From: Planoprotostelium fungivorum
Taxonomy: Eukaryota > Evosea > Variosea > Cavosteliida > Cavosteliaceae
NCBI GenBank assembly: GCA_003024175.1
Contig: MDYQ01000128.1
Coordinates: 1-64,000 of the forward strand
Reading direction: 5' to 3'
DNA: 64,000 bases
The position numbers and the translations under genes were made by a program. The notes under the pieces were generated by a model, which was given only the letters and a program-made list of their open reading frames with translations, was not told where the DNA came from and searched no databases. Position 1 is the stretch's first letter; each line of letters starts with the position of its first letter. Of the stretch, positions 1 to 64,000 are shown in pieces.

Positions 1-102
1 ACGATGAAGGAGGTGCTGAGCCATCGGTGGCTGAAGAGATCATTTTTTAACAAGAAGAGATGGAGTATCAATTATAGAGTTGAACAGAAGGATAAATTAT
101 AA
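1..102 (+). CDS. Protein kinase C-terminus (kinase C, cut by the window edge)
   Basis: Only the last 33 codons and the TAA stop are in the window. They match exactly the C-terminus of the kinase on the minus strand at 63377-64000, so this is the left-arm copy of that gene. The visible piece is the end of helix I of the kinase fold (a TMKEVLSHRWLKRS block) and a short basic tail. The intervening 103-387 before the GCN5 gene shows no convincing gene. Confidence 0.85.
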   Translation, partial: TMKEVLSHRWLKRSFFNKKRWSINYRVEQKDKL

Positions 103-387
103 GTTTTGTAATCTGGATTTCATTCTTTTGTATGTCCTTGGATGCTAACGAGTCTGAATGCCAGTGATTCAAGATTACCTGTTGCATTATGTATGGATGT
201 ATGACCCAGCAAAAAGATAAATCGTCCATCACCCAGGATGACTGATATGAATAGAGGAAAGTCGGTATCTCACTCATCAGCCGCTTGCTCATGCTCTAAA
301 ATCGAGAAAATGGTATAAATTAAATTTAAATCTTTTCTCAACATCAGATCCCGCAGCATCATCACGAAAGGTCCTTCCTTCTCTGTA

Positions 388-3300
388 ATGAGCGGATTGA
401 TCGGTCCGGGCTCGACCACGATAAACGGTCCGCATACGGGGCAGTCTAATGGACAGCCACAGAATGGACCGAATCAGGCCAGCATTCGACTGAGGAACAT
501 GCTCGAGAAAATGACCAAGGGAGAGAAAGTATTTCGAGCGGCCACACAACTCCACTGTCAAGAGAGAGTTCACAATCCTCGTCTCAACATACAAGTGATG
601 TTATTCCCGATCTATCTTCATCTCGAATCCTTCTCGACCGACATCCTCCTCTATTTTACGACATTCCACACGCCTTCTGTGAAATAACCACCGTTCTGAT
701 GTATCATATCACAGTCACAATGCCCTTGTGAAGGATGGAGGAAACCTGCTGCGACACAAGTCCCTGGCGCACCAAATCCACCGCAGTCAACCGATTGCGG
801 AATGTGTAAACACAGCGTTTTGAGTCATGGAATCCAATTGCTGAAGCACGACGAATTAGACAGGTGAGTCTGAACGACATCATCACCCCTCGATCATCAT
901 CCCGCACATCATCTCCACATCACTTTCCATAGAAAGTGAACCGATCGTCCGTCCCGATCGAAATATTCCTCGTTGTAGACGGAAGATTCACCGAAAATGC
1001 AGGGTCGTCGTCTTGGCCATACAGATGGAACAGCACACGATCGAGGCGAGCAAAGCTGCAGGCAACGATCAGATCAAATACAACAAACACATGGAAGTCA
1101 TCAAGCAGATCCGAGCCACACTGAAGAATCCCCTCGCTTACGTACGAAAGGTGAGATCTCCACGAGATTTCCATCACCGTTCGCTCGTAGATTTCGTGTG
1201 GAATTCGTGGAAATTTCGTGGAAAACTCACGATCACCCAGCAGCAGGTGCAGATGAACCCGAACGGCATGACACAAGGTCAGAATCATCCGGGCAACATG
1301 CATCCCTCCATGGTACAAAATAACGGACAACCGATGATGCAATCCATGATGCACGCGAACATGAACGTGAATCCAATGATGCAAGGACAACCGCAAGCCT
1401 ATCCCAATCAACAGGACGAGAACAAGAAATCCGTTGCCGAAGTGTTGGGCGTACCACCCTTCGATCGCCCGACGATATCACAAGTGAGATGACTCGTTGT
1501 AGATCGATGAAATTCCGATGAGATTTCTCACCGCGGGCAGCTGTTGAGAAATTTCGTCGAGTTGAGGTATTCGCAAGTGGAACCGAAAAGACACATTGCA
1601 GAGAAATTAGTCAAATTCTTTGAAGCAACGATCAATCGCATGGACTTATCTCAGCCACCACCGACGTCAACGGGTCCCAACGCGTTACCCGTGAGATATC
1701 ATCTACTCTCCGTCACGATATCGTACGTACGAACCCCGAAACTTCGAAGAAATTTCGATTAAAATATGACGGAAAATATCGGGAGCGGGGACGATGACGT
1801 GTCTTTTGTTATGCGGCGGGCTGATTTTGGGACAGGTGGATCGGATGTACACGACGATGTGGAAGAGATGGAAGTACTATTGTAGAGTGTCACCAGAGCA
1901 ACACAAGATGACAGACATTTTCGGTCGAAATACTCTCCGCTTTGTCCTCAAACAAGTGTGTAGATCGAACGAAATCAATCATCAATTTCATTCATATCAT
2001 TTATTCCTCTCTTTCGTGAGAAGTGTTCGGGCCGGAAGAATAACGGAAGAATAGGCGCAGATCAGAGAATTTTTCGGGAAAGTGAGGCAGGCATCCCCCG
2101 AGATGGAGTCCTTTGTTCCAGAATTCTTCAACGATTTGGACAAGGAAAATTCCAACGATCAGTCACCCATCCATCGTGAACATACACAGGTGAGACTCTA
2201 ATACGTACGCATGATATCATAGAAATGATATCGTGCGGAAAAAATCGCTGCAAACGAGGAGACATCTACATGAGTTACGTGTAGATCTAAATTGCAAATG
2301 TATGACGAATGGAATTGATCGAGATCAGCAGCAGCAGCAGCAAGATATGATGTCATATGATATGTACAATAATGGAGGTATGAAGGCCCAGGGAAACATT
2401 GTACAGCCCGGCGGCCTACCCCAAAACCCCGCCGTGAGGAAGAGAAAATCCGGTGAAATTCCGGCGACCATGGGCAACATCAAACGCACGAAGAGCGACG
2501 TGGGAGGTGAATCATCCATCTACACCGTTGTAGATCGACAAAATCATCCAATATTGATTTCTGATCAGTCAACGGTGCATTCAATACGACACCACTGCCT
2601 CAGGCGATGAGTTTCTCTCAAATGAACAACATGCAGAATCAAATGCAGAACAATATGCCCCTACCTATGGTCCAGCATTCTACAACGAGCCAAGAGACGC
2701 AGGATCTTTTGGGACCTGAGGTGAGACATCTCAACATTCGGTCGAGATATCACGATTCATTGTAGATAGGGAGGACAATTAGACAATAAATTTAAAGACA
2801 AGAAGGCCAGGACCGAAGAGGCTCGCGGTGTCATCTCTTTCCAAGTCTTCGGGTGATTTATTTTACATCTACAACGTTGTAGACGGCCTCTGATGGCATC
2901 AGAAACGATCGAAATCCGACACACATGACGTGGCTCTGCCTCCTGAAGAATATTTTTGCCAAACAGCTGCCGAAAATGCCGAAAGATTACATCGTTCGTT
3001 TGGTCTTCGATCGAAACCACAGGTGAGACACGTCATTTCACGAAAAGAAAGAAAGAGAAATTTGGTGGTTTACATCGTTGTAGATCGCTGGCTCTGTTGA
3101 AGGGGAGTGGAGAAGATGGGAAAGAGAAGGAAGTTGTCGGCGGAATTTCGTTTCGACCGTTCAAATCGCAGGGCTTCCTAGAAATCGCATTCTGCGCCAT
3201 CACGACCAGCGAACAGGTGAATGTCACGATATCATACCAAAGACATCGCGATATGAAGTCACGATATCACATTGAGGCGTTACGATGTCGTACGTAAACT

Positions 3301-62000: not shown

Positions 62001-63091
62001 ATATCGTCGGGCGATCGAAGGGTGGTACGCCCAACACTTCGGCAACGGATTTCTTGTTCTCGTCCTGTTGATTGGGATAGGCTTGCGGTTGTCCTTGCAT
62101 CATTGGATTCACGTTCATGTTCGCGTGCATCATGGATTGCATCATCGGTTGTCCGTTATTTTGTACCATGGAGGGATGCATGTTGCCCGGATGATTCTGA
62201 CCTTGTGTCATGCCGTTCGGGTTCATCTGCACCTGCTGCTGGGTGATCGTGAGTTTTCCACGAAATTTCCACGAATTCCACACGAAATCTACGAGCGAAC
62301 GGTGATGGAAATCTCGTGGAGATCTCACCTTTCGTACGTAAGCGAGGGGATTCTTCAGTGTGGCTCGGATCTGCTTGATGACTTCCATGTGTTTGTTGTA
62401 TTTGATCTGATCGTTGCCTGCAGCTTTGCTCGCCTCGATCGTGTGCTGTTCCATCTGTATGGCCAAGACGACGACCCTGCATTTTCGGTGAATCTTCCGT
62501 CTACAACGAGGAATATTTCGATCGGGACGGACGATCGGTTCACTTTCTATGGAAAGTGATGTGGAGATGATGTGCGGGATGATGATCGAGGGGTGATGAT
62601 GTCGTTCAGACTCACCTGTCTAATTCGTCGTGCTTCAGCAATTGGATTCCATGACTCAAAACGCTGTGTTTACACATTCCGCAATCGGTTGACTGCGGTG
62701 GATTTGGTGCGCCAGGGACTTGTGTCGCAGCAGGTTTCCTCCATCCTTCACAAGGGCATTGTGACTGTGATATGATACATCAGAACGGTGGTTATTTCAC
62801 AGAAGGCGTGTGGAATGTCGTAAAATAGAGGAGGATGTCGGTCGAGAAGGATTCGAGATGAAGATAGATCGGGAATAACATCACTTGTATGTTGAGACGA
62901 GGATTGTGAACTCTCTCTTGACAGTGGAGTTGTGTGGCCGCTCGAAATACTTTCTCTCCCTTGGTCATTTTCTCGAGCATGTTCCTCAGTCGAATGCTGG
63001 CCTGATTCGGTCCATTCTGTGGCTGTCCATTAGACTGCCCCGTATGCGGACCGTTTATCGTGGTCGAGCCCGGACCGATCAATCCGCTCAT
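59032..63091 (-). CDS. GCN5/PCAF-type histone acetyltransferase, right-arm copy
   Basis: Mirror of 388-4447 with a constant coordinate sum of 63479. All reading frames compared, including those running through introns, are identical to the left copy, so the two genes have diverged little if at all. Both would encode the full PCAF_N-GNAT-bromodomain protein. Confidence 0.95.
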
Positions 63092-63376
63092 TACAGAGAA
63101 GGAAGGACCTTTCGTGATGATGCTGCGGGATCTGATGTTGAGAAAAGATTTAAATTTAATTTATACCATTTTCTCGATTTTAGAGCATGAGCAAGCGGCT
63201 GATGAGTGAGATACCGACTTTCCTCTATTCATATCAGTCATCCTGGGTGATGGACGATTTATCTTTTTGCTGGGTCATACATCCATACATAATGCAACAG
63301 GTAATCTTGAATCACTGGCATTCAGACTCGTTAGCATCCAAGGACATACAAAAGAATGAAATCCAGATTACAAAAC

Positions 63377-64000
63377 TTATAATTTATCCTTCTGTTCAAC
63401 TCTATAATTGATACTCCATCTCTTCTTGTTAAAAAATGATCTCTTCAGCCACCGATGGCTCAGCACCTCCTTCATCGTAGGTCGTGCCATCGGCTTCAGT
63501 TCCAGCATCCACCCCACTAGCTCCTTTGCATCGTCGCTGACGTCGATGTCTTCTGGCCAGTACAAGTCTGGCTGCACTCTCATGCGTGGCACTTCTGTCG
63601 GATCGAAGGGCAGACAGCCAGTGAGAAGGATGTGTAAGACGATGCCCAGTGACCACACGTCTGAGCTAGCCGGCTCGAACGGCATCTTTCGCCAGACTTC
63701 TGGTGAGGCGTAATCAGGTGAGCCTTCGAATTGATGACACAGATCCAGAGTCTCAGTGGCAAGGCCAAAGTCGATGAGAGTGAGGTGGTCGTCTTTGCCT
63801 ACCATGATGTTCTCTGGCTTGATGTCCAAGTGTGCGATGCCTTGTTTGTGACTGTGTTCGAGTCCTGCAGAGAAGATGAGAATGGATGTGTGAGATGATG
63901 TGATGTGATTACCTTTGGCGAGGCCCTTGAACATCTTTCTGGTTCTGTTTTCTGAGAAGTGTCCAAAAGACTCTTCTTGCAGAAAGTCGAAGAGGTTGCA
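63377..64000 (-). CDS. Protein kinase C, CAMK-like, partial at the window end
   Basis: The C-lobe and part of the N-lobe are visible, with one short intron (about 63870-63915) just before GLEHSHKQG at the same site as in kinases A and B. HLDIKPEN, IDFGLA, PDYASPEV and DVWSLG are intact. It differs from A and B by several residues (AKG for ARG, ATETLDLCHQFEG, DPTEVPRMRV) and by its C-terminal tail KRSFFNKKRWSINYRVEQKDKL. The start lies beyond 64000. It is the outermost gene on both sides of the palindrome. Confidence 0.9.
   Translation of the reverse strand, partial: CNLFDFLQEESFGHFSENRTRKMFKGLAKGNHITSSHTSILIFSAGLEHSHKQGIAHLDIKPENIMVGKDDHLTLIDFGLATETLDLCHQFEGSPDYASPEVWRKMPFEPASSDVWSLGIVLHILLTGCLPFDPTEVPRMRVQPDLYWPEDIDVSDDAKELVGWMLELKPMARPTMKEVLSHRWLKRSFFNKKRWSINYRVEQKDKL

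Follow-up and report, generated by a model that had tools for sequence, protein, structure and literature searches.

A giant inverted repeat in the Planoprotostelium fungivorum assembly probably joins two haplotypes head to head through a small inversion

The first 64,000 bases of contig MDYQ01000128.1 from the free-living amoeba Planoprotostelium fungivorum (hereafter the window; bases 1–64000 of the 203,605-bp contig, which we call C65) consist almost entirely of one inverted repeat whose two arms are separated by a 1.7-kb spacer. The gene-bearing core of that spacer, 1.44 kb long, also lies at the centre of a second inverted repeat with different arms, on another contig, C132. Comparison of the two loci at sequence level suggests that the window is most likely made of two haplotypes of one region that were joined head to head in the assembly by way of a heterozygous 1.44-kb inversion, and that the chromosome itself probably has no such palindrome.

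Minus-strand self-BLAST of the window returned a chain of matches that pairs positions 1–30227 with 63478–31935 in pieces of 92.4–99.6% identity (E = 0 for the long ones), whereas off-chain self-matches, at 73–82%, originate in the protein kinase region. The inverted repeat is far beyond chance and is present in the deposited sequence. Its arms sum to 30,227 + 31,544 = 61,771 bases, or 96.5% of the window; the initial annotation, made from the letters alone, had correctly described a large inverted repeat with a spacer of about 1.7 kb and a tRNA gene in each arm, and had put its share of the window too high, at more than 98%. A search of the window with Rfam at the gathering cut-off yielded only these two tRNAs, one tRNA-Thr(TGT) at the inner edge of each arm, and no rRNA. 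The inverted homology also extends further inward than had been noticed, to a 35-bp match at the edges of the core. Because the left arm begins at base 1 of C65, the outer limit of the repeat lies outside the data; in the other direction C65 continues for 140 kb beyond the right arm. The parts of the repeat are as follows.

1–30227, plus strand: left arm (self-BLAST; the contig starts at base 1)
30131–30215, minus strand: tRNA-Thr(TGT), inner edge of the left arm (Rfam)
30228–31934, no strand: unique spacer separating the arms, 1,707 bp (self-BLAST)
30333–30367, plus strand: left copy of the 35-bp inverted match (83%) at the core edge
31812–31846, minus strand: right copy of the 35-bp inverted match (83%) at the core edge
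31947–32031, plus strand: tRNA-Thr(TGT), inner edge of the right arm (Rfam)
31935–63478, minus strand: right arm (self-BLAST and arm alignment)

Searching the whole assembly (36,859,091 bases in 471 contigs) with the sequence 30500–32000 revealed one further copy of the spacer, on C132 (55,431 bp). This C132 copy of the core is itself the centre of an inverted repeat, with arms at 44890–49460 and 50928–55431. Comparison of the window with the whole of C132 gave no match of at least 400 bp besides the core; at lower stringency, tRNA-Thr proved to be common to the window and the C132 arms, and 69 bp of the transcription factor paralogue that each C132 arm contains matched the core with 80% identity; in protein, the paralogues are 41% identical to the core transcription factor. 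The homology between the C65 and C132 cores stops at the borders of the C132 arms. Of 1,439 aligned bases, 49 are not the same in the two cores, and there are gaps as well; every one of these differences falls outside a single exact run of 754 bp.

30362–31804, minus strand: core common with C132:49460–50928 (94.6% over 1473 columns), Zn2Cys6-type transcription factor gene
30388–31141, no strand: 754-bp stretch exact in the C65 and C132 cores, equal to C132:50149–50902; putative site of the haplotype switch

When the 3-kb flanks were read towards the core, C65 left resembled C65 right and C132 left resembled C132 right, whereas all four cross-comparisons between C65 and C132 matched in tRNA-Thr segments only. 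At both loci inverted homology continues inward of the tRNA genes as far as the core, with 35 bp in C65 and about 1 kb in C132. We therefore rejected an explanation by a join at the tRNA-Thr repeat alone, of which 90–101 bp are identical between the loci. The core gene, on the minus strand, contains the motif C-x2-C-x6-C twice and is presumably a Zn2Cys6-type transcription factor, as recognised by eye; in Pfam it gave PAS_13 at 19 bits, under the 27-bit cut-off, and the other two frames of the spacer had no Pfam match. A splice model of the core gene reached only 174 and 195 amino acids, stopping before the PAS-like part in both copies, and we have no full gene model. The initial annotation was right about a gene in the spacer; the C132 copy shows that this centre occurs more than once.

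The arms exist in two states of identity. Aligned end to end, the C65 arms contain 11 exact runs, which range from 560 bp up to 3,430 and 4,886 bp and add up to 22,860 bp, and 11 patches of 56–2,526 aligned bases each, with 674 substitutions in 6,796 bases (9.9%). The C132 arms follow the same pattern: their two exact runs sum to 2,094 bp, and their two patches diverge by 10.1%. In a simulation that spread 806 events evenly over a slightly wider alignment, the longest run obtained in 1,000 rounds was 518 bp. Because exact runs alternate with patches, identities such as the 99.6% of the outer 5.4 kb represent a mixture and not an age. All 13 patches (11 in C65 and two in C132) contain indels, and in each of them the two arms differ in length, by 14–879 bp in patch coordinates. 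The outermost 50 bp of the C65 patches are 8.2% diverged; from there to 450 bp the value does not rise steadily, and it reaches 17–22% in the deepest bins (500–600 bp). The most prominent runs and patches are listed here.

1–4886, plus strand: outermost exact run, truncated at the start of the contig; mirror 58593–63478
14574–15789, plus strand: most diverged patch, 21.7%; mirror 47463–48876
20335–23042, plus strand: largest diverged patch, 7.9%, with indels to 881 bp and a difference in kinase copy number; mirror 39120–42706
26404–29833, plus strand: longest internal exact run, 3,430 bp

We had taken the exact runs as a mark of recent gene conversion and dropped this sign, because an assembler that merges alleles of equal length and keeps those of different length gives the same picture. 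Two local features of the arms were also seen. A dispersed element of about 100 bp at 15112–15211, with relatives of 75–92% on seven other contigs, coincides for the most part with a 94-bp gap in the right arm, and a GATGACGATGGACGATGGAA-type minisatellite at 44180–44260 accounts for a 60-bp length difference between the arms.

The coding content of the arms is largely mirrored. Among stop-to-stop frames of at least 100 amino acids, 72 on the left arm and 78 on the right, 68 of the 72 left-arm frames have a right-arm match, 54 of them near full length on both sides and 40 identical. The right arm carries an extra kinase copy at 39781–41435. Our codon comparison covers one coding pair, the kinase in the largest patch, whose right-arm member is listed below.

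42056–42943, plus strand: protein kinase frame, right-arm partner of 20098–20988 (minus strand) (Pfam, codon comparison)

This pair shows 34 synonymous and nine nonsynonymous differences in 295 codons, corresponding to a nonsynonymous divergence (dN) of 0.014 and a synonymous divergence (dS) of 0.21. Given these two values, both kinase copies are old and under purifying selection.

To account for both loci, we propose that the true order would be C65 arm, core, C132 arm, with the 1.44-kb core and its Zn2Cys6-type gene inverted on one haplotype relative to the other; either end of the core would then border on an edge of C65 type in one haplotype and of C132 type in the other. The assembly would have changed haplotype inside the 754-bp stretch that is identical on both, giving two products: C65 arm A, core and reversed C65 arm B, which is the window, and C132 arm A, core and reversed C132 arm B. 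With X for the edge of C65 type, Y for that of C132 type, and a and b for the core ends, the assembly has X-a...b-X' and Y-b...a-Y', and the haplotypes would be X-a...b-Y and X'-b...a-Y', with strands re-paired inside the 754-bp stretch. The false palindromes would stop where the haplotypes are alike over stretches too long for the data to span. We infer the allelic status of the arms, the heterozygosity of the inversion and the haplotype switch from what the deposited sequence displays directly, namely both inverted repeats, the common core, the junctions, the exact run and the single-copy tested flanks. The junctions alone do not decide the matter, because two real palindromes with a common core give the same four; we favour the inversion on grounds of economy and of the contig ends. 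One 1.44-kb inversion would more simply explain why both cores are centres, why their arms differ, why the contigs end in exact runs and why the tested flanks are single copy. The core gene and the transcription factor paralogue of the C132 right arm lie on the same strand, so that on the C132-right side one core orientation makes an ordinary tandem pair.

The contig ends and flanks are consistent with this arrangement. Base 1 of C65 lies within an exact run of at least 4,886 bp and base 55431 of C132 within one of at least 1,457 bp, which places both contig ends where two haplotypes could merge. Genome-wide searches used 2–3-kb queries; queries of 10–20 kb missed their own locus and were therefore discarded as evidence of absence. 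For four tested stretches of 2–2.5 kb outside the arms, no near-identical second copy was found (0 of 4: C65:66200–68700, which starts 2.7 kb past the arm; C132:42400–44900, which overlaps the arm by 11 bases; C65:117001–119000; and C132:23001–25000). Their longest other matches, 72% on C216 (from C65:66200–68700) and 76% on C25 (from C65:117001–119000), are ordinary paralogues. The genome search found no further contig with the outermost 2.5 kb of the arm, and two arm queries each had exactly two copies, with no triplication or amplified arm copy seen.

Single Ns offer a smaller-scale parallel. The loci analysed contain three, at C65:157929, at C132:9383 and on C414, and each joins two versions of one sequence end to end; the aligned lengths and identities are, in that order, 184 bp and 96.7%, 423 bp and 97.9%, and 242 bp and 95.0%. 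At the C65 and C132 joins the differences are central, between exact stretches of more than 60 bp, and the C132 join also has a 110-bp length difference; at the C414 join the differences run from base 23 to about 12 bases before the end. Such joins can look like the two alleles of a heterozygous bubble placed in series. Gene families and tRNA genes aside, no further direct repeat of more than 140 bp at short distance (spacing below 3 kb, identity of at least 80%) was seen in C65 or C132.

Haplotype switches and false duplications occur in assemblies of heterozygous genomes. The window resembles such cases in that two versions are kept side by side, patches lie between exact stretches, the ends fall at merges and the tested flanks are single copy. 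False duplications are usually direct or on separate contigs, whereas here the two copies lie head to head, since the assembly path could turn back at an inverted core. The initial annotation had raised a head-to-head joining of haplotypes as a caveat; it is now the best explanation, with a mechanism and, in C132, a partner contig. If it is true, the deposited genome counts both alleles of a block of at least 30 kb as separate genes, C132 and C65 are neighbours, and the sequenced amoeba had two haplotypes with local divergence near 10% plus an inversion. A common centre, different arms and contig ends in exact runs can serve as a warning sign for other ‘giant palindromes’ in draft assemblies.

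Several points weigh against the haplotype explanation. The patch divergence of about 10% and the kinase dS of 0.21 are high for alleles. The arms were threaded through exact runs of up to 3,430 bp, so that a failure at 754 bp requires arbitrary phasing of the arms as well, or else an assembler that followed one allele outwards and returned along the other. If a true neighbour had been broken off, a tRNA-Thr gene might be expected at a contig end, yet none of the 14 matches in the genome is in such a position; and the two C65 edges fail to align over about 100 bp from tRNA to core. Since the four test stretches gave no sign of a second haplotype, the two must have been merged elsewhere by the assembler. 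The N joins number only three and may be due to faulty contig ends, and unresolved repeats of any kind could likewise make contigs end in exact runs.

The chief alternative, which we regard as unlikely, is that the two loci are real giant palindromes, produced by fold-back or inverted-repeat amplification centred on the transcription factor gene between inverted tRNA-Thr genes, and that arm-to-arm conversion has homogenised the arms while patches with indels escaped. At both loci inverted homology inside the tRNA genes does reach the core, indels occur in 13 of 13 diverged patches as if heterology blocked conversion, and the two arms carry kinase copies that are old and evolve under purifying selection. 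Other duplicated pairs lack long exact runs; an example is a second inverted repeat on C132 (3024–6413 and 12324–15730), which is evenly diverged at 11.3%, has a longest identical run of 121 bp and looks like an ordinary old inverted duplication. However, two palindromes would have to have one 1.44-kb core in common and yet no arm sequence except tRNA-Thr, and a search with the outermost 2.5 kb of the arm turned up no other contig that carries it. The 24,954 bp of exact sequence over two loci, beside patches at 10%, are odd for conversion at varied times, and divergence in C65 is already 8.2% at the very margins of the patches. The G+C content of runs and patches, compared without a significance test, is almost the same, at 0.483 and 0.475 in C65 and 0.481 and 0.481 in C132. 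Both copies of the 1.44-kb, tRNA-Thr-flanked transcription factor module that we found are centres of gene-bearing inverted repeats with different arms; that this module seeds giant palindromes is a tentative idea to which we give little credence. Were the palindromes real, the window would be a self-homogenising, gene-bearing palindrome with a recurrent centre in a free-living amoeba.

Comparison with known palindromes bears on the same question. The extrachromosomal ribosomal DNA of Dictyostelium is a large palindrome in an amoebozoan; the window differs in that it contains no rRNA (Rfam) and C65 runs 140 kb past the arm. Like primate Y palindromes, the window has, in the assembled sequence, long arms in inverted orientation with a unique spacer between them. 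The arms of human P6 are given as 110 kb long and 99.97% alike, with 49 differences, in PMC3723533, whereas those of the window match exactly over three quarters of their length and diverge by about 10% over the remaining quarter, and the spacer recurs on another contig with other arms. The likeness to Y palindromes drawn in the initial annotation is not supported: arm identity is either exact or about 10% diverged, not uniformly high, and the same spacer gene centres the C132 repeat. The inverted, symmetric arms also recall origin-dependent inverted-repeat amplification and palindromic amplicons, as presented in PMC10766186, and the tRNA pair with the 35-bp inverted match near the centre could by analogy serve as an amplification seed. 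Here, in contrast, two arm queries each gave two copies and no amplified copy was seen.

A non-palindromic segmental duplication is improbable. Two paralogous loci, each with a C65-type arm, core and C132-type arm, one core being inverted, would if mispaired in the assembly give the same junctions and the same two-state mosaic; the kinase dS of 0.21 suits paralogues better than alleles, and related segments exist on C190 and C59. This explanation nevertheless needs a second set of outer flanks, unless the duplicate ends near the contig ends, and the tested flank stretches of both contigs are single copy. A fold-back artefact (a missed-adapter read, a whole-genome-amplification chimera or a template switch) can be given almost no weight: palindromic reads do arise from amplification artefacts, according to PMC6218980, but these arms differ by 674 substitutions, many indels (to 881 bp) and an extra kinase, a 1.7-kb unique spacer is present, and both compared kinase copies are open with mostly synonymous changes (34 versus nine). 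Such old, selected differences led us to reject a simple fold-back chimera, against which it had been argued earlier from the arm-specific indels and the spacer gene.

Sequences related to the inner arm edges are found elsewhere in the genome. The tRNA-Thr(TGT) gene (window 30127–30227 and 31935–32040) has its 14 genome matches on four contigs: four on C65, seven on C132, two on C190 and one on C59. Some copies adjoin transcription factor genes (C132) and some are on contigs with kinase arrays (C65 and C190); together they are perhaps one regional tRNA cluster. The second C132 inverted repeat has tRNA-Thr at both of its outer ends. C132:1–2898 is nearly identical to C190:15230–18124, beyond which the contigs diverge, and C190:18111–20175 is 85–97% similar, in reverse, to C59:45631–48624. 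Judged from these matches, C190 near 18124 appears to be a junction of two duplicated or allelic segments.

When 17 right-arm frames were compared with Pfam, eight frames of six genes exceeded the curated cut-off; the families are pro-kumamolisin protease, PHD finger, protein kinase, GH18, homeodomain and bromodomain. A protein kinase array occupies 63365–64000 and extends onward to C65:100964, with genes 71–93% alike in DNA; its relatives are also found on C190 and other contigs, and the left end of C65 cuts into a kinase unit. Short intron-like stretches rich in GAAATTTC interrupt reading frames at 45620–45670, 33031–33070 and elsewhere. This sequence occurs 31 times in C65:31935–203605, as against five times in one base-composition shuffle, and the stretches are possibly introner-like sequences.

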